From assembly GCA_946410535.1 (NCBI GenBank), contig CAMKAR010000104.1, forward strand, positions 1 through 7,280: a DNA stretch of 7,280 bases, in the 5' to 3' direction. Position numbers and translations under genes: made by a program. This stretch comes from an uncultured Bacteroidales bacterium (GTDB lineage: Bacteria > Bacteroidota > Bacteroidia > Bacteroidales > F082). The notes under the pieces are model-generated. The model was not told where the DNA came from. It was given only the letters and a program-made list of their open reading frames with translations, and did not search any database. Below, piece after piece: positions 1-7,280 of the stretch (positions are counted from its first letter, which is position 1; each line of letters starts with the position of its first letter).

Positions 1-188
1 ACCTCCGATTCCAACTTGCGGTAGAGAGCTTCGTCGTATTTGTGGAAGAAGTCGCAGACCGAAATACGGTATTTCGCCTCAAACAGCTCATCAGTATCGG
101 CCACGTCCCAACCAAGACGGTTGGCGAGCCGCTTTGCTGCGGTTGACTTGCCCGCACCCATATAGCCGACGAGGTAAATACGATTCAT
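1..188 (-). CDS. aroK: Shikimate kinase, N-terminal 62 residues (3' part beyond the left edge)
   Basis: Cytoplasmic enzyme that phosphorylates shikimate at its 3-hydroxyl with ATP, the fifth step of chorismate and aromatic amino acid synthesis. Translating back from the ATG at 188 gives MNRIYLVGYMGAGKSTAAKR. Residues 8-16 (GYMGAGKST) are a Walker A P-loop of the shikimate kinase form. Residues 31-33 (DTD) match the Mg/shikimate-binding motif, and residues 53-60 (EALYRKLE) correspond to the family's GE..FR..E segment, with R57 as the expected shikimate-contacting arginine. About one third of a typical 170-175 aa protein is present. The start codon sits a few residues before the P-loop, as usual, behind an A/G-rich leader. 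It lies downstream of the radical SAM gene on the same strand, but a 110-bp gap holding a long palindrome separates them, so co-transcription is uncertain. P-loop kinases resemble one another, but the DTD and YRKLE spacing favours AroK over gluconate kinase. Confidence 0.9.
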   Translation of the reverse strand, partial: MNRIYLVGYMGAGKSTAAKRLANRLGWDVADTDELFEAKYRISVCDFFHKYDEALYRKLESE

Positions 189-209
189 ATTCTTCTTTCT
201 CGGTGTATC

Positions 210-289
210 CGTCATTGCGAGAAACGAAGCAATCCAGAAACTATCTGATCTTTCTCTGGATTGCTTCGTCGTGCCTCCTCGCAATGACG
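210..289. repeat. Long imperfect inverted repeat, REP/MITE-like palindrome
   Basis: The outer arms CGTCATTGCGAG (210-221) and CTCGCAATGACG (278-289) are exact reverse complements. The inner arms ACGAAGCAATCCAG (224-237) and CTGGATTGCTTCGT (256-269) are also exact reverse complements. The arms are offset by 2 bases on the left and 8 on the right, and the loop is about 18 bases. As RNA this would fold into a strong stem-loop between the radical SAM stop codon and aroK. From memory, the sequence type CGTCATTGCGAG...GAAGCAATCC is a dispersed intergenic repeat seen in many unrelated bacteria. There is no T-run on either side, so it is not a standard terminator, but it could stabilise or attenuate the transcript between the two genes. 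Confidence 0.85.
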
Positions 290-298
290 CAAAGCGTG

Positions 299-1375
299 TC
301 AACTATCAACTATCATATTATATTGACAGATTTGCAGTTTCCCGTCGCCGTCGCGCAGATGGAAACCGTTGCCTTGGCAATAGCGCCACATCTTGCAACT
401 GGCGCATTGGTCGGTCTTCATCCATTTGCGGTCGCGATAGGGCTGGAACTTGCTGGTCCACACGTCCCAAAAACTATCCTTATAGATGTTGCCCTGGTGG
501 TAGTCGCTGCGGATGCTGAGGCAGCCCGAGATGGAGCCGTCGGCGAGCACCGAGGCGATATTGATGCCTGCACTGCACGAATAGTAGTGGTTGCGCACCT
601 CGCCCTCGTACTTGCCGAGGAAGCCGTCGCAGCCATAGTCGGCACGGATCTTCCCCTCGAGGCGCGTCTGCTTGATGAACTCCATCATCTCGACGAACTG
701 CGCATTGCTGAGCTTGAAGTCAGGCTCGTTGGCGGCGCGACCGAAAGGAAACACCGTGAACAGGCGCCAACGGCGGATACCCAACGAAATCAGGAAGTCG
801 CGGAACTGTGGCAGATATTTGATAGTCCGTTGGTTGACGCAGGTGATGACATCCCAAGTGAGGCTCGGATGCTGCTTCATGGCTTCCACGGCACGGAGCA
901 CGTTCTTGTAGCTCATCGGGTTGCCGCGCATCCAGTTGTGGTCATCCTCAAAGCCATCGAAGCTGACCGCGATTGACTTGAGTCCCGCAGCGACAAACTC
1001 GTTGAGCTTTTCAGCGGAAAGCAACATTCCGTTGCACACCATGCCCCAGACGAAGCCGCGCTTGGTAATCTCTTCGCCGCAATGCGCCAAGTCGGGACGC
1101 ACGGTGGGTTCGCCGCCCGTGGTGATGACCATCACCTTGGCGGGATCCATATGAGTACGCACTTCGTCGAGCACCTTGAGGAAATCCTCGAGCGGCATGT
1201 CGTCCTTTTCGGAGAGCATACGGCAGTCGGAGCCACAATGACGGCAATTGAGATTGCAGCGCAGCGTGCATTCCCAAAACAACTGGTGCAGCTCGTGCTC
1301 TTCGATGCGCTTTTGCAGCACCTGATGGTTGAGCTCGAGCATCACCTTCTTATAAAAACCGAGACGGTGGCTCAT
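299..1375 (-). CDS. Radical SAM/SPASM enzyme, rSAM/lipoprotein-system type
   Basis: A 358-aa cytoplasmic radical SAM enzyme. C40, C44 and C47 (CNLNCRHC) form the CX3CX2C ligand set of the SAM-cleaving [4Fe-4S] cluster. GGEPT at 87-91 is the SAM-binding GGE motif. The C-terminal SPASM region has C267-x12-G280-x4-C285, then C324-x2-C327-x5-C333, and a last C350; the sixth canonical cysteine (CX3C) is replaced by G337. Extra cysteines C36 and C51 flank the radical SAM motif. Known SPASM enzymes modify peptides or proteins, or act as sulfatase maturases. This sequence (WECTLRCNLNCRHCGSDC) resembles, from memory, the Bacteroidetes subfamily encoded beside a lipoprotein. That fits its position: its ATG overlaps the stop codon of the upstream lipoprotein gene by one base. 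An internal Met12 is a possible alternative start, but Met1 gives the coupling overlap. The substrate is not shown by sequence; the neighbouring lipoprotein is the natural candidate (inference). A sulfatase maturase is less likely because no sulfatase is nearby. Confidence 0.92.
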   Translation of the reverse strand: MSHRLGFYKKVMLELNHQVLQKRIEEHELHQLFWECTLRCNLNCRHCGSDCRMLSEKDDMPLEDFLKVLDEVRTHMDPAKVMVITTGGEPTVRPDLAHCGEEITKRGFVWGMVCNGMLLSAEKLNEFVAAGLKSIAVSFDGFEDDHNWMRGNPMSYKNVLRAVEAMKQHPSLTWDVITCVNQRTIKYLPQFRDFLISLGIRRWRLFTVFPFGRAANEPDFKLSNAQFVEMMEFIKQTRLEGKIRADYGCDGFLGKYEGEVRNHYYSCSAGINIASVLADGSISGCLSIRSDYHQGNIYKDSFWDVWTSKFQPYRDRKWMKTDQCASCKMWRYCQGNGFHLRDGDGKLQICQYNMIVDS

Positions 1376-1920
1376 TATTTACGCTTTGGGTCTGGTGAGC
1401 CATACAGCACATCCGCAGCACGCCCCTCCTTCTTACCAACAGGCAGAGCCTCGATTTCCTCCTTCGAGATGTTGTCGAGATCGCGGATTTGCTGCTGCAC
1501 AGCCTTCACTTCATCACGGAGGCGTTGCGTTTCACGGCCATATTCCTCAATGATTTCGGGCGAGCCGTAGACGCAAGCCCCCTCACGACGTTGCAACACC
1601 TCTTGGAGTTCAACGATGCGTTCCTGCAAGGCCACACGTCGGGCGCTCTTTTCCAAATCCACATTCTCACCCAATTTGGCATTGATGGAATCAAGTTGGC
1701 TTCTGAGACGATAGGTCTCAGCACCATATCGGGCGATGATTTCGGGCGAGCCATACACAGCCGCTCCCTCGCGACGTGTCAGTATGTCTTGGATGGCGTC
1801 GCGCTCCTTGATAAGTTGCTTGCGTTCCCTTCGCGACAGGCCGTTGGTCGTGGTGCAAGCCGCCAGAAAGGCCAATCCCGAAAGCACGCCGATACAAACA
1901 GTTCGAACTACTTTTTTCAT
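1375..1920 (-). CDS. Lipoprotein with tandem YGSP-motif coiled-coil repeats, possible radical SAM substrate
   Basis: A 181-aa predicted lipoprotein. Residues 1-21 form a signal peptide ending in a lipobox L19-A20-A21-C22; C22 would be acylated. The mature part is highly charged and probably mostly coiled-coil helix. It contains a duplication: residues 49-73 and 111-135 align as RREGA[AC]VYGSPEII followed by [AE][RE]YG[AR]ET[YQ]RLR, with a 62-residue period. A third YGSP occurs at 173-176, five residues before the C-terminus. Apart from C9 in the signal peptide and C22, the only cysteine is C116, in the second repeat. The stop codon overlaps the ATG of the radical SAM gene (TAATG), and the gene has its own Bacteroidetes promoter, so it is the first gene of the unit. 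From memory, lipoproteins paired with this class of radical SAM enzyme in Bacteroidetes often carry a short YG[STV]P motif near the mature N-terminus; here the motif is multiplied in a helical scaffold. Role as modification substrate is inference; a simple coiled-coil envelope lipoprotein is the alternative. Confidence 0.85.
   Translation of the reverse strand: MKKVVRTVCIGVLSGLAFLAACTTTNGLSRRERKQLIKERDAIQDILTRREGAAVYGSPEIIARYGAETYRLRSQLDSINAKLGENVDLEKSARRVALQERIVELQEVLQRREGACVYGSPEIIEEYGRETQRLRDEVKAVQQQIRDLDNISKEEIEALPVGKKEGRAADVLYGSPDPKRK
1387..1419 (-). repeat. Third, isolated YGSP motif at the lipoprotein C-terminus
   Basis: Encodes residues 168-178 (AADVLYGSPDP). Only the core of the repeat is kept, preceded by a small-residue/aspartate stretch and followed by a basic tail KRK. 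There is no coiled coil after it. Confidence 0.75.
1516..1590 (-). repeat. YGSP repeat unit 2 of the lipoprotein
   Basis: Encodes residues 111-135, beginning RREGACVYGSPEII. It differs from unit 1 at six positions, including Ala to Cys at 116, which places a free thiol two residues before the YGSP tyrosine. Confidence 0.85.
1702..1776 (-). repeat. YGSP repeat unit 1 of the lipoprotein
   Basis: Encodes residues 49-73, from RREGAAVYGSPEII to the RLR that opens the following coiled coil. It matches unit 2 (1516-1590) at 19 of 25 residues and clearly also at DNA level, for example the shared ATTTCGGGCGAGCC on the plus strand, which indicates an in-gene duplication. Confidence 0.85.
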
Positions 1921-1943
1921 CTCAAAAATGTGTTACAACGCGG

Positions 1944-1971
1944 CAAAGATACTAATTTTCGCCAAATGCAA
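1944..1971 (-). promoter_or_regulatory. Bacteroidetes-type promoter of the lipoprotein/radical SAM unit
   Basis: Read on the minus strand, TTG (1971-1969), a 17-base spacer and TATCTTTG (1951-1944) match the Bacteroidetes -33 TTG and -7 TAnnTTTG elements. Transcription would begin near 1937, leaving a leader of under 20 bases before the ATG at 1920. Assigned by pattern and position only. Confidence 0.65.
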
Positions 1972-2054
1972 GGAAAATGTTCAGAAAAAAGGCAAGGTGG
2001 TTGATGCCTTCTCGGTTGCTGGTGAAAAACAGGCATACTTTTTGTAGGAATGTG

Positions 2055-2084
2055 TTTCTGGCATCAAAAACCTTTGTATTTTTG
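2055..2084 (+). promoter_or_regulatory. Bacteroidetes-type promoter of the outer-membrane barrel gene
   Basis: TATTTTTG at 2077-2084 fits TAnnTTTG exactly. TTTC at 2055-2058, 18 bases upstream, is a partial -33 element. Predicted start of transcription is near 2091, giving a leader of about 50 bases that is A-rich just before the ATG (CTATAACCAAA) and has no Shine-Dalgarno sequence. Confidence 0.6.
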
Positions 2085-2141
2085 CCACGAAAAACATCAA
2101 ACCAAGGATTGAAAACGTATTAAACTAAATCTATAACCAAA

Positions 2142-2735
2142 ATGAAAAAAGCATTAGCTATCGTGGCTCTCGTGGCCGCAATGTTCGTTGCCGGAAAAGC
2201 GCAGGCACAAGTGAGCGTCAACATTGGTTACGCTCCCGAAAAATTCACCACCACCTGGAACAACACTTCCTCTTCGACCAACTACCAGGGCTTCTTTGTC
2301 GGCGTTACCGACAATATAGGTTTGGCCAAAGGCTTGGGAGTCGCCCCCGGACTTCAGTTTCGCTTGAACACACGAAGCTACGAAGGTCTTTTGGGTACCA
2401 AATACAAAGACACCCAAATACTCGTTGACGTCCCCGTGTTGTTGAACTATTCCATCGGCATCACCCGCGACCTTTCCATCGCGCCATTCGTTGGCCCCAT
2501 GTTCAGCATCGCCCTATCGGGTGCCACAAAAGCGGGCAACACCTCCGTCAGCTGGTATGGAGACGACAGCAGCAACAACTGTTTCAACATCAATGCAGTG
2601 CTTGGTGCCGCCATTGATTTCAACAGGGCCAAACTGTTCGCTGGATACCGCTTCGGATTGTTGGACCAAGACAGTCTGGACAGCACCACCACCAAGACGC
2701 AAGGCTTCTTCGTCGGTTTGGGCTACACCTTCTAA
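2142..2735 (+). CDS. Small outer-membrane beta-barrel protein (OMP_b-brl / porin-like family)
   Basis: A 197-aa protein, complete. Residues 1-22 are a Sec signal peptide with cleavage after A20-Q21-A22. The mature protein shows alternating amphipathic beta strands: VSVNIGYAPEKF, YQGFFVGVTDNIGL, GVAPGLQFRL, ILVDVPVLLNYSI, LSIAPFVGPMFSIAL, NINAVLGAAIDF, AKLFAGYRFGLL, and the final GFFVGLGYTF. The closing aromatic-x-Phe end is the BAM recognition signal of outer-membrane barrels. The length fits an eight-strand barrel of the type common in Bacteroidetes. The specific function cannot be read from sequence; no loops or motifs suggest an enzyme. It has its own promoter and a strong terminator and so is monocistronic. 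It is divergent from the lipoprotein gene, and the two leaders share a roughly 220-bp intergenic region. Confidence 0.85.
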   Translation: MKKALAIVALVAAMFVAGKAQAQVSVNIGYAPEKFTTTWNNTSSSTNYQGFFVGVTDNIGLAKGLGVAPGLQFRLNTRSYEGLLGTKYKDTQILVDVPVLLNYSIGITRDLSIAPFVGPMFSIALSGATKAGNTSVSWYGDDSSNNCFNINAVLGAAIDFNRAKLFAGYRFGLLDQDSLDSTTTKTQGFFVGLGYTF

Positions 2736-2760
2736 ACGACAAAACGACACACACCATCAC

Positions 2761-2789
2761 AGAGACGCTTTCGGGCGTCTCTTTTTTTT
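2761..2789 (+). terminator. Rho-independent terminator after the barrel gene
   Basis: AGAGACGC (2761-2768) and GCGTCTCT (2775-2782) form an 8-bp perfect stem around the loop TTTCGG, and the stem runs directly into eight T residues (2782-2789). It lies 26 bases after the stop codon at 2733-2735. Confidence 0.92.
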
Positions 2790-2804
2790 GCCCTCAAAAA
2801 AAAG

Positions 2805-2900
2805 TTTTCAACAGTCCGATGTTGATAAATTGTTGATAAGTTAATGAAATCCAGAGTCTTTCATCAACGACAATTTACTACTTTTGAAACCTTATTCACA
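2805..2900. promoter_or_regulatory. Cluster of DnaA-box-like 9-mers
   Basis: TTTTCAACA (2805-2813), TGTTGATAA (2820-2828), TGTTGATAA (2831-2839) and TTATTCACA (2892-2900). The last is a perfect match to the TTATNCACA DnaA consensus. The two central copies are the reverse complement of TTATCAACA and stand 11 bases apart, one helical turn. The following stretch to 2954 is strongly AT-rich. This could be a DnaA-responsive promoter, an origin-like cluster, or chance in AT-rich DNA. No dnaA or other replication gene is in the window. Confidence 0.3.
2859..2886 (+). promoter_or_regulatory. Candidate Bacteroidetes promoter of the giant modular protein
   Basis: TACTTTTG at 2879-2886 matches TAnnTTTG exactly. 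TTTC at 2859-2862, 16 bases upstream, is a weak and slightly close -33 element. The predicted leader is about 60 bases, AT-rich, without a Shine-Dalgarno sequence before the ATG at 2955. Confidence 0.5.
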
Positions 2901-2954
2901 AAAGAGCTTGTTTAAGTTAAATCATTAAGTATCAAATAATTAAATTTCATTCGT

Positions 2955-5900
2955 ATGAAACGAAAACTCACTATTTTGTTGACAGCGGTTTTGCTGTTGA
3001 CCATGAATGCACTAACTGCATTAGGTCAAAACAACTATGAAAAGGTCACTTCCGCTCCATCCGACTGGAGTGGAGAATACCTTTTGGTCTATGAAAGCGA
3101 TGCCACGACAGCCTATTGTTGGACGGGTGTTGATGCCGTGAACTGCTATGATGAACTGACAATTAGCAATAACACCATCACTGCCGACAATTTGGTCAGC
3201 ATCACCATCGAATCAATGACAGGTGGTTATTCCATTAAAGTTAACGGTGGAACAAATGATGGTAAATACATTTATAGTCAAAACAACACCAACTCCCTAA
3301 AGTTCAATGATGCCCCTTCCGCCAACACTTTGGAATTTGATAATGATTGGGTAAAAATCACATCAAACACATGCATCATGCGCTTTAATGCGACTTCGAA
3401 CCAGATGAGATTCCGCTACTATAAGTCTTCATCTTATACTAACCAACAACCTGTTCAACTCTACAAGAAAAACGATGGCACCCAGCCCCAAGAGACCGTG
3501 GCCACCCCGACTTTCACACCGGAAGGCGGCACTTACACTGAAGCCCAAACCGTGAGCATCAGCTGTGCCACCGAGGGCGCCACCATCCGCTACACCACCA
3601 ACGGCAGCGACCCCACCGAGAACAGCGCGACCTACCTTAATCCGCTCGACATCAATGAGACCACCACCGTGAAGGCCAAAGCCTGGAAAGAAGGCTATCT
3701 CGAAAGCGAAATTGCTGAAGCCACATTCACCATCGAGATTCCTGGCGACCCGCAAATGACCGTCTCGACCAACCAAATCGAAGGCTTCCAATATGTTTTC
3801 GGTGCCGGACCGTCGCAAACGCAAAACTTCACCGTTTCGGGCAGCGACCTTCAAGCCAACGTAACCATCACTCCCTCTCAAGAATTTGAAATCACTACCG
3901 AACCTAACGGTTTTTATTTCAACACCTTAAGCCTCAGCCCCACCGAAGGGGTCTTGGCCGAAAGAAGCGTTTACGTCAGAATGAAAGCCAACTTGGCAGT
4001 AGGTGCTCACACTGGCAGCATCACCCTCGTTTCGGGCGACCTCAACGCCAGCATCGCCTTGAGCGGCACGGTGAACGAACAACCCGTGGCCGTAGCACCC
4101 ACCTTCACTCCCGCCAGCGGCAGCTTCATCACCGCCCAAACGGTCAGCATCAGCAGCACGACCGAAGGCGCAAGCATCCACTACACCACCGACGGTACTG
4201 AGCCTACCGAAAACAGTCCCGTCTACAGCCAGCCCATCACGGTGAGCAGCACGACCACCATCAAGGCCATGACCGTCGCAGCGGGCTACCAAAACAGCCC
4301 CGTTGCCGAGGCCACCTACACCATCGTTGAGCCCATCGCCATCGCTGAGGCTCGCGCCTTGGCCGATAACGAATACGCTTGCGTTGAAGGCACGGTCATC
4401 TTCATCGACGGTCGCAACGTCTATATCCAAGACGCCACCGCCGGCATCGACCTCTACATGAACAGCAACACAGTGCCCACCACCCTCGCCATCGGCGACA
4501 TGGTGCGCACCTATGGCAAAAAAACCACTTACAACAACTTGGTTGAACTCACTGGAATCGCAGGCAACAACGCCAATGTGTTCGCCGTCGTCTCGACAGG
4601 CAACACGCTTCCCGAGCCTGCCATCCACACCATCGCCGAAATCAACGACGACTTCAGCGACAGCAACATGATTCAATCCACCCGCGTTACCATCGAGCAA
4701 GCCGTCATCGGTGCCATCAACACCAACGGCAACACCACCCTCACGCAAGACGGCAACAGCCTCGTCGTCTACCGCATCCCCAATGTGCCTGGCATGATCC
4801 AGGGCGACTGGGTGACCTTGACTGGCATCGTCAGTTGCTACAACGGCACGCTGCAACTGCGGGTGGTCAGTGCCAACGACGTGGCCTACACCCATCGTCC
4901 CGTACTGATCGCCAACCCCACTTCGCTCAGCGGTTTCACTTACGAATACGAGCAAGGCGGTCCTTCGGAAGTGGCCTCCTTCCTCATTAGCGGCGACCAT
5001 CTGACCGACAACGTGGCCATCTATCCATCCGAGAGCTTCGAGGTGTCGACGATGCCTATCTCGATGTTCCGCCCCGAAAACCCGGCCATGATCTACATCC
5101 CCAACTCAGGCCATTTCTACGACATCAGCATCAGCGTCAGGATGAAAGCCAACCTTGAGGCAGGCGACTACAACGAACAGATCTATGCCGTTTCGGAAAA
5201 CGCCGACACCGTGTTCATCAACGTGAGCGGCACCGTCACCGGTGGACAGCCCACGCCTCCGCCCACTCCCGTTGAAGGCAACTATGTGCGCATCAGCGAC
5301 CTCAGTCAACTGACCGAAGGCGCCTATATCGTCGTTGCCGCTCGCTTCGACGAGAATGCCACCGACTATTACGCCATGACCGCAGCCACAACAGGCAAAC
5401 CCACCGGCGTACTCTTCACCTCAGCCATGTCGGGAAATGATGAAGTGCTGCCCGCCACCATCGCCGACGAAGAAGCCACCTACTACTGGGTGGTCAACAC
5501 CACCGCCAACGGCTACACCTTCACCAACGCCAACGGCGAGGTAATGGGCTACACCAGCGGCACCAACTTCGCCACTGGCGGCGACAACACCGAATGGAGC
5601 ATCGAAAGCGCCACCTCTGGCGAGGCCACGATGGTACCCAACTATACGGGCTATATCATCACCAACGTAAACAACGAGTTGAGACACTTCGCCCTGAACA
5701 GCAGCCATAATTTCGGCCCGTACCATTCCAACAATCTGAGTAGCAGCGACTACAACTTCTACCTCGACATCTTCGTCAAGACCGAAGGCGGTGATCCGCC
5801 CATGCCAACGGTGGCCACGCCAACCTTCACCCCCGAAGCCGGCACCTATTTCGAGGAACAAACCGTAAGCATCGCCTGCGCCACCGACGGAGCCACCATC

Positions 5901-7280
5901 CACTACACCATGGACGGCACCGACCCGACCGAAAACAGCCCCGTCTACAGCACACCTATTAATATTAATGAGACCACGACCCTCAAGGCCATCGCCATGA
6001 AGGAAGGCTACAACAACAGCGCCATCGCCGAGGCCGAATACATCATCCAGGCAGGTATGGTCGTCATCTTCGACCAAGACTGGGAAGGCGAGATGAATGG
6101 CTGGACCTTCGTGACCGTGGAAGGCAGCAAGCCTTGGACTGTCGAACAACATCAAGGCAATCACTACGCTTATGCCAACGGCTACAACGGCGGCGTCAAC
6201 GAACAATGGTGCATCTCGCCCGGCTTCAACATGCACGATTACGGTGAGGTGTATCTAACGTTCAGAAATGCAAAGAACTACACTGGCCCAGATTTGGAGT
6301 TGAAATACTCAACCAACTATGACGGTGTTGATCCGACAACCGCCACTTGGTGGACCTTCGACTATAACATGTCGCCAGGTTCTTACACTTGGGTTGAGTC
6401 AGGCGCAATACCGATCAGCATCACCCCCTATCCTGCCCACAACTGCTACATCGCTTTCAAATACACCTCAACTGAAACCGAGGCAGCCGCTTGGGAGGTG
6501 GACGACATCATGCTTGTGGGAACCACCTATGTGCCTAATCTCACTGTAACGCCTAATTCACTGTCAGGGTTTACGCATGTGGTTGGCGAAGGCCCTTCCG
6601 CATCGCAATACTTCACTTTGTCGGGTGTCAACATCGGCCCCGCCCCCGGTGGTGGCTCGACCGGCTCCGTCATCATCCAGTCCAACGAGAATGAATTCGA
6701 AGTGTCTCTCGACAACGAAGCCTTCTCATCGCAGGTTTACATTGACGGCATCGATGGCACCCTGGAACCGACCCCGATTTATGTGAGAATGAACGGTTCA
6801 GAGGTTGGACAATATACTGGAACTATTGAAATCTCTGCCTCATCATCCGACGAAACCTCCGTAGCTTTGAGCGGCACCGTAACCGAACAACCCGTTCCTG
6901 GCGGCGACTACGTGCGCATCAGCGACATGAGCCAACTCGTGGCCGGCAACCGCGTCATCCTTGCTGCCCGCTACAACGAGACCGCCAACGCCTACCTTGC
7001 CGCAGCCAACACGCTGACGAGCGGCAAGCTCACCACCACCGAGTTCACCAGCACGATGAACGGCAGCGACGAAACCATCCCTGCCAGCATCATGGCTGCC
7101 GAGGACAGCTACTATTGGACTGTGGACGTGACCGCCGACGGCTACACCTTCACCAACGCCAACGGCGACATGATCGGCTACGGCAACAGCGGCACCAACT
7201 TCGTGATGAACGGCAACAAGACCGTTTGGACGATTTCGACGGGCGTTTCGGCTCCCGAGAGCTTGGTGCCCGAACACTTC
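2955..7280 (+). CDS. Giant secreted modular repeat protein, adhesin-like (C-terminus beyond the right edge)
   Basis: An open frame of 1442 codons with no stop, checked base by base, truncated by the window. Residues 1-24 are a signal peptide (KRK, then a hydrophobic core, cleavage near ALG|Q). Domains in order: lectin-like domain 28-172; chitobiase-C-terminal-like 182-260; Ig-like 268-373; chitobiase-like 379-457; OB-fold-like 459-646; Ig-like 650-761; Pro-rich linker 762-775; lectin-like 776-944; chitobiase-like 953-1032; jelly-roll (choice-of-anchor-J-like) 1035-1190; Ig-like 1196-1309; lectin-like again from 1318 and cut at 1442. No catalytic motif is seen. In Bacteroidetes such mosaics are typically surface or type IX-secreted proteins that bind glycans or other cells, often with a C-terminal sorting domain, which would lie outside this window. 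Base composition is uneven along the gene, AT-rich at the start and around 6240-6860. Start choice: first ATG, directly before the signal peptide. Exact ligand is unknown, and an enzyme domain further downstream is possible. Confidence 0.88.
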   Translation, partial: MKRKLTILLTAVLLLTMNALTALGQNNYEKVTSAPSDWSGEYLLVYESDATTAYCWTGVDAVNCYDELTISNNTITADNLVSITIESMTGGYSIKVNGGTNDGKYIYSQNNTNSLKFNDAPSANTLEFDNDWVKITSNTCIMRFNATSNQMRFRYYKSSSYTNQQPVQLYKKNDGTQPQETVATPTFTPEGGTYTEAQTVSISCATEGATIRYTTNGSDPTENSATYLNPLDINETTTVKAKAWKEGYLESEIAEATFTIEIPGDPQMTVSTNQIEGFQYVFGAGPSQTQNFTVSGSDLQANVTITPSQEFEITTEPNGFYFNTLSLSPTEGVLAERSVYVRMKANLAVGAHTGSITLVSGDLNASIALSGTVNEQPVAVAPTFTPASGSFITAQTVSISSTTEGASIHYTTDGTEPTENSPVYSQPITVSSTTTIKAMTVAAGYQNSPVAEATYTIVEPIAIAEARALADNEYACVEGTVIFIDGRNVYIQDATAGIDLYMNSNTVPTTLAIGDMVRTYGKKTTYNNLVELTGIAGNNANVFAVVSTGNTLPEPAIHTIAEINDDFSDSNMIQSTRVTIEQAVIGAINTNGNTTLTQDGNSLVVYRIPNVPGMIQGDWVTLTGIVSCYNGTLQLRVVSANDVAYTHRPVLIANPTSLSGFTYEYEQGGPSEVASFLISGDHLTDNVAIYPSESFEVSTMPISMFRPENPAMIYIPNSGHFYDISISVRMKANLEAGDYNEQIYAVSENADTVFINVSGTVTGGQPTPPPTPVEGNYVRISDLSQLTEGAYIVVAARFDENATDYYAMTAATTGKPTGVLFTSAMSGNDEVLPATIADEEATYYWVVNTTANGYTFTNANGEVMGYTSGTNFATGGDNTEWSIESATSGEATMVPNYTGYIITNVNNELRHFALNSSHNFGPYHSNNLSSSDYNFYLDIFVKTEGGDPPMPTVATPTFTPEAGTYFEEQTVSIACATDGATIHYTMDGTDPTENSPVYSTPININETTTLKAIAMKEGYNNSAIAEAEYIIQAGMVVIFDQDWEGEMNGWTFVTVEGSKPWTVEQHQGNHYAYANGYNGGVNEQWCISPGFNMHDYGEVYLTFRNAKNYTGPDLELKYSTNYDGVDPTTATWWTFDYNMSPGSYTWVESGAIPISITPYPAHNCYIAFKYTSTETEAAAWEVDDIMLVGTTYVPNLTVTPNSLSGFTHVVGEGPSASQYFTLSGVNIGPAPGGGSTGSVIIQSNENEFEVSLDNEAFSSQVYIDGIDGTLEPTPIYVRMNGSEVGQYTGTIEISASSSDETSVALSGTVTEQPVPGGDYVRISDMSQLVAGNRVILAARYNETANAYLAAANTLTSGKLTTTEFTSTMNGSDETIPASIMAAEDSYYWTVDVTADGYTFTNANGDMIGYGNSGTNFVMNGNKTVWTISTGVSAPESLVPEHF
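3036..3470 (+). other. N-terminal beta-rich (lectin-like) domain of the giant protein
   Basis: Residues 28-172. It begins YEKVTSAPSDWSGEYLLVYE and ends RFRYYKSSSYTNQQPVQLYK. This start/end pattern recurs in Bacteroidetes secreted proteins and resembles the two modules at 5280 and 6906. The lectin-like label is a structural guess. Confidence 0.5.
3498..3734 (+). repeat. Chitobiase-C-terminal-like module 1
   Basis: Residues 182-260, with the signature ATIRYTTNGSDPTENSATY and the lead-in VATPTFTPEGGTY. The pattern YTxDGxxPTxxSxxY marks the CHB_HEX_C type (PF13290), a beta-sandwich accessory domain without catalytic activity. Confidence 0.8.
3756..4073 (+). repeat. Ig-like beta-sandwich module 1
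   Basis: Residues 268-373. The pattern is MTVSTNQIEGFQY, then GAGPS, FTVSGSDL, EFEIT, SVYVRMKANL and finally IALSGTV. The same skeleton recurs at 4902 and 6540. Confidence 0.7.
4089..4325 (+). repeat. Chitobiase-C-terminal-like module 2
   Basis: Residues 379-457, signature ASIHYTTDGTEPTENSPVY and ending AEATYTI. Same fold family as the modules at 3498 and 5811. Confidence 0.8.
4329..4892 (+). other. OB-fold-like domain of the giant protein
   Basis: Residues 459-646. It has two halves with alternating strands: EYACVEGTVIFIDGRNVYIQ, GIDLYM, IGDMVRTYG, LVELTGI; then a second half with STRVTIEQAVIG, NSLVVYRI, IQGDWVTLTGIVSCYNGTLQL. The pattern is that of the OB-fold modules (DUF5689-like, from memory) found in Bacteroidetes exported proteins. 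Confidence 0.6.
4902..5237 (+). repeat. Ig-like beta-sandwich module 2
   Basis: Residues 650-761: NPTSLSGFTYEY, QGGPS, FLISGDHL, SFEVS, ISVRMKANLEAGDY and VNVSGTV-type ending (INVSGTV). The segment VRMKANL is shared with module 1. Confidence 0.7.
5280..5786 (+). repeat. Lectin-like module, copy 1
   Basis: Residues 776-944, starting NYVRISDLSQLTEGAYIVVA and containing ATYYWVV, GYTFTNANGEVMGY and SGTNFATGG. It is clearly homologous to the copy at 6906, and its end (FYLDIFVK) recalls the end of the N-terminal domain (VQLYKK). Confidence 0.7.
5509..5539 (+). repeat. 31-bp exact direct repeat, copy A
   Basis: Identical to 7138-7168. It encodes the GYTFTNANG segment of lectin-like copy 1. Confidence 0.9.
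5811..6050 (+). repeat. Chitobiase-C-terminal-like module 3
   Basis: Residues 953-1032, signature ATIHYTMDGTDPTENSPVY. Its start VATPTFTPEAGTY is closest to module 1, while TENSPVYS is shared with module 2. Confidence 0.8.
6057..6524 (+). other. Jelly-roll domain (choice-of-anchor-J / cleaved-adhesin-like)
   Basis: Residues 1035-1190: VIFDQDWEGEMNGWTFV, W-rich core, NEQWCISPGFNM, VYLTFRNAKN, LELKYSTNYDG, CYIAFKYTS, and the closing AWEVDDIMLVG. The order 'E..NGW', 'W.ISP', 'Y.S.dg' and 'A.E.DDI.L.G' is typical of this Bacteroidetes adhesin domain. It is a binding module rather than an enzyme. Confidence 0.75.
6540..6881 (+). repeat. Ig-like beta-sandwich module 3
   Basis: Residues 1196-1309: LTVTPNSLSGFTHVVGEGPS, FTLSGVNI, EFEVSLDNEAF, IYVRMNG and VALSGTV. 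It carries an insertion, PAPGGGSTGS, after the second strand that the other two copies lack. Confidence 0.7.
6906..7280 (+). repeat. Lectin-like module, copy 2 (cut by the window edge)
   Basis: Residues 1318-1442, starting DYVRISDMSQLVAGNRVILA and containing DSYYWTVD, GYTFTNANGDMIGY and SGTNFVMNG, aligned without large gaps to the copy at 5280. About 45 residues are missing at the right edge if the copies are equally long. Confidence 0.7.
7138..7168 (+). repeat. 31-bp exact direct repeat, copy B
   Basis: Identical to 5509-5539, 1629 bases downstream. That distance is divisible by three, so recombination between the copies would keep the reading frame. Confidence 0.9.

Follow-up and report, generated by a model that had tools for sequence, protein, structure and literature searches.

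A radical SAM/SPASM enzyme paired with a YGSP-repeat lipoprotein in an uncultured Bacteroidales bacterium: a candidate for splicease-like modification of exported lipoproteins

A 7,280-nucleotide stretch of DNA from an uncultured Bacteroidales bacterium (contig CAMKAR010000104.1, positions 1 to 7,280; hereafter the window) encodes a radical S-adenosylmethionine (SAM)/SPASM enzyme and, directly upstream of it, a lipoprotein with three copies of the motif YGSP. The best reading of this pair, to which we give a probability of about one half, is a splicease-like modification of the lipoprotein ahead of its export. It is very probable that the enzyme acts on the more general motif YGxP; whether the reaction would be an excision of tyramine is close to an even bet, and a role in protease inhibition is a doubtful extension. 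The two genes and their features are:

1375..1920, minus strand: gene for the YGSP-repeat lipoprotein (181 amino acids), the predicted substrate
1855..1920, minus strand: signal peptide and lipobox, residues 1–22, ending LAAC (from sequence and conservation); a possible recognition leader
1744..1755, minus strand: YGSP site 1, residues 56–59, between model helices 30–52 and 59–82
1558..1569, minus strand: YGSP site 2, residues 118–121, between model helices 89–114 and 121–157
1393..1404, minus strand: YGSP site 3, residues 173–176, in a C-terminal tail with low model confidence
299..1375, minus strand: gene for the radical SAM/SPASM enzyme (358 amino acids), family TIGR04133 (rSAM_w_lipo)
1229..1258, minus strand: CNLNCRHCGS, the radical SAM cluster motif with the GS extension common to splicease-like enzymes (from alignment)
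1106..1117, minus strand: GGEP motif, residues 87–90
593..625, minus strand: GFLGKYEGEVR, the G[FY]xGxYExxxR signature common to TIGR04103 and TIGR03913 enzymes (from alignment)
326..577, minus strand: SPASM region, C267 to C350 (Pfam PF13186)

A scan of genome contigs for relatives of the enzyme found 88, and the top 80 of them serve here as loci; many of these are titled rumen or gut, and the nearest relatives (97–98% identity) are from uncultured Bacteroidales. At 78 of the 80 loci the 1.8 kb examined upstream of the enzyme holds, on its strand, an open reading frame (ORF) with both a signal peptide and YGxP. There are two exceptions: L077 has an 83-residue lipoprotein with YGIRP, and L045 has a P-type ATPase-like gene upstream, its genome (G007) holding a second operon with TIGR04133 and, unlinked, a YGSP lipoprotein. 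The nearest signal-bearing ORFs of 77 loci contain YGxP 125 times, against 0.8 expected from shuffling and a maximum of 5 in 1000 shuffles, and control ORFs of at least 250 amino acids outside the operon (n = 197) contain 19 in 81,881 residues. The 77 loci are those with a signal-bearing ORF ending within 60 nucleotides (nt), L010, L027 and L045 being without one, and four of these ORFs lack the motif: a wrong-frame pick in L003, where the real partner has YGSP, and those of L071, L073 and L077. An unbiased comparison of gapped three-residue patterns puts YG.P first, in 13 of the 16 divergent partners and 64 of the 65 close ones (four of the 16 were taken over from another part of the analysis). 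In a count of 182 sites made with a loose ORF filter (144 ORFs), the residue before the tyrosine is valine, leucine or isoleucine in 162 and valine alone in 102, and the third motif position is serine in 111, proline in 32, threonine in 20, valine in 13 and glycine in two.

The motif is also conserved within proteins that were chosen irrespective of it. Masking both motif stretches in the query and setting no motif condition, we matched 91 of the 1010 ORFs from the 80 loci; the resulting alignment has 92 rows including the window, 51 of them filled over both site regions, and gives 541 pairs of 60–97% identity that are not independent of one another. Across these pairs the Y, G and P of sites 1 and 2 have 54 amino-acid against 1330 synonymous differences (ratio 0.04), and the other mature residues 22759 against 19784 (ratio 1.15). 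Elsewhere the ratio is 0.21 in the signal peptide, 0.05 for the Arg-Glu ahead of the sites and 1.99 at the x residue. Site 2 keeps Y, G and P in all 51 aligned relatives; site 1 has the tyrosine in 37, the glycine in 34 and the proline in 39, with other sequence in the remainder; and the stretch with site 3 is present in 24 of the 51, with P in 22 of these. Database relatives picked by similarity alone keep the Y, G and P of sites 1 and 2 in 33 of 33 cases. The lipoprotein has 994 protein relatives at E ≤ 0.001, and among the 120 listed there are three YGxP in 97, two in 22 and one in a single protein.

Enzyme and lipoprotein occur together. In 149 genomes sampled from the family to which genome G001 belongs, TIGR04133 is over cut-off in 62 and the lipoprotein profile is present in 53, with both in 52 (Fisher test 1e-28, a value inflated by kinship). 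The 53rd lipoprotein genome (G153) has a TIGR04133 fragment of 172 bits that starts at the first base of its contig. A lipoprotein commonly found without any radical SAM gene, which the original prediction of a modification system at this locus had named as evidence against itself, is not what we see. Of the 62 TIGR04133 genomes, ten do not match the lipoprotein profile: in nine the enzyme has a different YGxP partner, and the remaining one is the genome of L088, where no YGxP protein is found in the 362 bases from contig start to enzyme. Sixteen extra regions from other genomes comprise 12 TIGR04133 loci, 11 of them with a neighbouring YGxP protein, and four regions with unlinked lipoproteins.

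The enzyme is a member of TIGR04133 (555.7 bits over residues 9–355; curated cut-off 425), and Pfam PF04055 (radical SAM) and PF13186 (SPASM) are both above cut-off in it. The SPASM-type motifs that had been claimed for it are present, and they are those of the radical SAM/SPASM superfamily: CX3CX2C (residues 40–47), GGE within GGEP, and C-terminal auxiliary-cluster cysteines (C267, C285, C324, C327, C333 and C350). These cysteines number six, one fewer than the seven in what we take to be the SPASM consensus. The missing position, 337, is glycine in 40 and alanine in two of 42 family members, and C249, invariant in all 42, may substitute for it. An AlphaFold2 model of the enzyme (mean predicted local distance difference test score, pLDDT, 89.3; predicted template-modelling score, pTM, 0.89) has PqqE, anSME, BlsE and SuiB as its closest structural matches; the 30 residues ahead of the catalytic fold form a single helix.

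Several observations connect this enzyme to the spliceases. After TIGR04133 its best NCBIfam model is TIGR04103 (nif11-class maturase 3; 117.9 bits), which we take to be equivalent to IPR026482. PlpX, a tyramine-excising splicease, is placed in IPR026482 by one source (PMC11002830). Another (PMC10533398) describes PlpXY as acting on XYG with loss of C8H9NO and with Tyr-Gly required, gives splice tags that hold LYGLP or GYGLP, and reports splicing inside proteins, namely two of the FtsZ variants tested and an affibody fusion; it also supplies the principle that tetrazine labelling can reveal ketoamides of this kind. The three sites of the window lipoprotein read VYG, VYG and LYG and so have the X-Tyr-Gly form. 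A Nostoc TIGR04103 enzyme (852.8 bits, cut-off 725) has a Nif11 precursor directly upstream ending GGRGSIALYGLPPELF, with the tail ALYGLPPELF. A tree of 32 enzymes places TIGR04133 in one group (support 91/86) with the TIGR04103, TIGR03913, DUF1843-linked, Tropicibacter and Agathobacter enzymes; PqqE, MftC, TIGR04053 and NirJ fall outside this group. G48 (in CxxxCxxCGS) is found in 20 of 20 TIGR04133 enzymes, five of five splicease-like enzymes, the Agathobacter enzyme and none of six others; E257 (in YExxxR) is found in 20 of 20, five of five and none of six (three being gapped there), respectively.

The likeness to PlpXY and the TIGR04103 spliceotide systems covers the Tyr-Gly target, YGLP (in the Nostoc precursor and the published tag), a SPASM enzyme, the CGS and YExxxR elements and several sites per substrate. 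The substrates differ, that of the window being an exported lipoprotein rather than a peptide with a Nif11 or nitrile-hydratase leader, and no Pfam match to such a leader was found in it at E ≤ 1. The GDL-motif/DUF1843 maturases (TIGR03913) are likewise related in the tree, and several of their peptides have PYG or LYG near the N-terminus; these peptides differ in being short, with no lipobox seen and no YGxP. We also note an unannotated ORF of 35 amino acids with MYGTG (L107, 2809–2916), a possible splicease-type substrate, upstream of the Agathobacter rectalis radical SAM gene.

A number of observations weigh against a splicease-like reaction at YGxP. The enzyme is far below the TIGR04103 cut-off (117.9 against 725 bits) and scores nearly as well with TIGR04053 (115.7 bits), AhbD (109.1 bits) and NirJ2 (106.9 bits), and the best E-values of the 42 family members favour TIGR04053, AhbD and TIGR03913 over TIGR04103. 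The tree contains six other SPASM enzymes, with PqqE on a very long branch and neither AhbD nor NirJ2 among them, and the Agathobacter enzyme has aspartate at the E257 position. PlpX works with PlpY, a protein of the RiPP precursor recognition element (RRE) type. No PlpY-like gene was seen beside TIGR04133, among adjoining genes only and with no search for an unlinked RRE, and the 30-residue N-terminal helix of the modelled enzyme is probably too short for one. The TIGR04103 and TIGR03913 enzymes in the alignment retain the SPASM cysteine that TIGR04133 is without. An N-terminal Tyr-Gly is present in four of eight TIGR03913/DUF1843-linked peptides (three of five in Azospirillum, one of three in Aureibacter), and YGxP in none. 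As to the motif itself, the nearest gene has YGVAP in L071 and L073 and YGIRP in L077, YGxP genes being present further upstream in the first two; site 1 is replaced in 14 of the 51 aligned relatives and reads VYDTP in one locus lipoprotein; and the most distant relative (60%) of a signal-less partner peptide described below (L094) lacks any strict YGxP, with Tyr-Gly left at two of its three tyrosine sites.

If the modification is nonetheless splicease-like, the enzyme would recognise the lipoprotein in the cytoplasm, perhaps by its conserved signal peptide as a leader, and would modify the Tyr-Gly of X-Tyr-Gly-x-Pro, with Sec export and lipidation following. The product would be an envelope lipoprotein with up to three reactive ketoamides at its hairpin loops and tail, and might plausibly act at the membrane as an anchored inhibitor or trap of proteases. 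Beta-residues from splicing confer protease inhibition, according to a review. Because valine, leucine or isoleucine precedes the tyrosine in 162 of the 182 sites, the predicted ketoamides might, as a speculation, suit proteases that cut after aliphatic residues. The proposal in its complete form, in which gut Bacteroidales would make backbone-spliced lipoproteins with the signal as splicease leader, tyramine cut from several X-Tyr-Gly-x-Pro sites, and envelope-displayed arrays of beta-amino ketoamides whose number is tuned by gene and site duplication, is somewhat less probable than splicease-like modification as such. The original prediction had the enzyme modify the YGSP motifs; the site of modification is very likely to be YGSP, and the modification itself is something we infer.

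The suggestion of a leader comes from the unusual conservation of the signal peptide. In the partner lipoproteins (n = 84), residues 4–22 have a mean identity of 76% against 58% for the rest, and are the better conserved part in 1527 of 1736 pairs. Control signal-bearing ORFs from the same loci (n = 57) have 50% in the signal against 74% in the rest, with the signal higher in 7 of 71 pairs; these controls come from a crude signal filter and six families, and the pairs share members. The signal peptide of the partners seems to do a second job, and may be a recognition leader for the enzyme, which would fit modification ahead of export. The lipoprotein is without an evident acidic surface-export signal, so that a membrane protein facing the periplasm is likelier than a surface protein.

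The strongest alternative, although an improbable one, is that the enzyme forms a cross-link at YGxP, a C–C, ether or thioether bond between the tyrosine and a near residue (a cyclophane, a Tyr-Pro link, a mycofactocin-like Val-Tyr link or a Cys thioether). In its favour, PqqE, anSME and SuiB, which the enzyme model resembles, have differing chemistries, the X residue is valine in 102 of the 182 sites, and a cysteine is at −2 in 78. However, a beta-carbon link at the third position would not be universal, that position being glycine in two sites, and Tyr-Gly is a known requirement of spliceases, as stated in PMC10533398. One general form of cross-link, a thioether to a neighbouring cysteine, was rejected, since 104 of the 182 sites have no cysteine at −2 or −1.

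Considerably less probable is that YGxP is a structural or docking motif, with the real substrate of the enzyme elsewhere and the genes merely co-regulated. An AlphaFold2 model of the window lipoprotein (pLDDT 76.4, pTM 0.58) has helices 30–52, 59–82, 89–114 and 121–157 as hairpins, not the one long coiled coil that had been proposed. In this model the Y-G-S of sites 1 and 2 sits in interhelix loops and the proline starts the following helix; a helix start at Pro-Glu could conserve part of the motif. The same type of enzyme, however, adjoins YGxP in unrelated protein bodies: small lipoproteins with the motif after the lipid cysteine, a predicted membrane-anchored peptide and a signal-less peptide. 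The first are found at the second-copy loci L081–L083, where lipoproteins of 64–128 amino acids have YGxP right after the lipid cysteine or one residue later. Records of Treponema saccharophilum (SCYGMP) and Parabacteroides distasonis (CEYGSP) also carry the pair, as does one of Phocaeicola massiliensis with the lipoprotein downstream (CEYGTP). The membrane-anchored example is a 73-residue ORF in L027 with two YGPP and no lipobox. The signal-less one is a 96-residue peptide beside the TIGR04133 enzyme of L094 (16–303, minus strand) with CVYGPP and VVYGPP; both YGPP are kept in two of its three database relatives, and a partner of this kind would fit an origin among peptide maturases. The L094 enzyme is the deepest TIGR04133 branch in the tree, with weak support (86/50). 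Further divergent partners are lipoproteins of about 60–75 amino acids, and some at divergent loci have carboxypeptidase-regulatory-like matches just under cut-off. YGxP is the element common to the partners, and the partner bodies differ.

Two other sets of YGxP proteins were observed. A small signal-less ORF between lipoprotein and enzyme in L019 (3801–3998) has YGCP and a Gly/Ser/Met-rich tail, with no Pfam match, and could be a leader-type substrate. An unlinked single-site YGSP lipoprotein is present in G007, G080, G116, G146 and G153 (L085, L099–L102), genomes in which TIGR04133 or part of it is found; the gene beside it, which we take to be RNA-methyltransferase-like, is apparently the same in all five.

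Least probable of all is that the enzyme epimerises, decarboxylates or oxidises (at serine, as in sulfatase maturation) one residue near YGxP: anSME has a similar fold, with the highest query-normalised template-modelling score (0.67–0.69) among the 50 structural matches listed, and anSME-type enzymes act on short motifs of full-length exported proteins, but the anSME motif and sulfatase substrate were not found in the window pair, and the variable middle residue is an unlikely target where the tyrosine and glycine are constant.

A search of NCBIfam, proposed with the original prediction, places the enzyme in TIGR04133 and the lipoprotein outside TIGR04134 (lipo_with_rSAM): membership of the latter was rejected, with no match at E ≤ 1 (cut-off 39.8 bits), and the lipoprotein has no NCBIfam or Pfam family over cut-off, its matches lying far below. 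TIGR04134 also had no match in any of five tested genomes that carry a window-type lipoprotein. Four of ten other partners tested, all from divergent loci, do pass the TIGR04134 cut-off, and those four carry YGxP. The window pair is like the TIGR04133/TIGR04134 pair in having a clear TIGR04133 member with a lipoprotein gene directly adjoining, and differs in its helical-hairpin lipoprotein with three sites and in relatives with up to five tandem genes (five ahead of the enzyme in L086 of G003). Partners of the window type have helical bodies and carry between one and three YGxP sites each, and the fewest changes between single- and multi-site forms on the enzyme tree is five, two loci without strict YGxP being counted as single. 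Because the proteins grade from one to three YGxP, single- and multi-site lipoproteins are, judged on their sequences, one graded family in which the repeat is an expansion and not a separate system. The proposal of a distinct, undescribed variant therefore stands only in that the lipoprotein is unlike TIGR04134; the pair is already named in NCBIfam, as rSAM_w_lipo and lipo_with_rSAM. That earlier account did not include the link to spliceases, the tandem paralogues, the conservation of the signal peptide or the non-lipoprotein partners.

No paper naming TIGR04133 or TIGR04134 was found in a literature search that left subscription papers mostly outside, and none among the matches listed joins spliceases and lipoproteins or gives the reaction or role of the pair. 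Haft and Basu 2011 and Scott et al. 2022 are likely prior work, and Scott et al. may cover part of it. Were splicease-like modification correct, chemistry known chiefly from small peptide natural products would turn out to be a routine protein modification of the lipoproteins that gut and rumen Bacteroidales export, and relatives of the system extend to Parabacteroides, Phocaeicola and a Treponema. A signal peptide could then serve as an enzyme leader, and the family could provide tools for protein labelling in the form of spliceases that need no separate RRE protein. TIGR04133/TIGR04134, a pair of unknown function, gains a concrete and cheap test, the loss of C8H9NO per YGxP site.

Two further features concern the layout of the operon:

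1373..1377, minus strand: TAATG, the lipoprotein stop and enzyme start, with a one-base overlap (from sequence)
1944..1971, minus strand: promoter-like site TTG-N17-TATCTTTG, 5′ of the lipoprotein gene

Both genes lie where they had been predicted, with the enzyme start inside the lipoprotein stop codon; the junction reads ...AAATAATGAGC..., and the final A of the lipoprotein TAA is the A of the enzyme ATG. As a trait of the system this overlap is limited to some loci, the spacing from the enzyme to its nearest YGxP partner ranging from −26 to +286 nt (78 loci), and translational coupling was dropped as the core of the system because the spacing differs across relatives. The promoter-like site, presumably of Bacteroidetes type, is the sole exact match to TTG-N17-TATCTTTG in the window, although at least one match also occurs in 14 of 200 shuffles. 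The common promoter claimed for the two genes is to this extent present as a site, and its sharing by lipoprotein and enzyme is plausible.

Downstream of the enzyme is the start of a shikimate kinase-like gene (3–218, minus strand), and such a gene lies 3′ of the enzyme in 32 of the 80 relatives. No other common third gene was identified within 500 nt downstream of the enzyme at the 80 loci; the next downstream groups (30, 21, 18 and 11 loci) resemble other-frame readings of the shikimate kinase gene. Just past the enzyme stop (210–289) are nested inverted repeats with arms of 15 nt and 12 nt, 100% complementary, which we take to be a palindrome like the repetitive extragenic palindromes and bacterial interspersed mosaic elements (REP/BIME), of the cgtcattgcgag...gaagcaatcc type. 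On the other side of the operon, divergently transcribed, is a gene for an outer-membrane beta-barrel protein (2142–2735, plus strand), and beyond it a gene, truncated at the end of the window, for a large secreted protein (2955–7280, plus strand) with three chitobiase C-terminal/Fn3-associated repeats and DUF5689.

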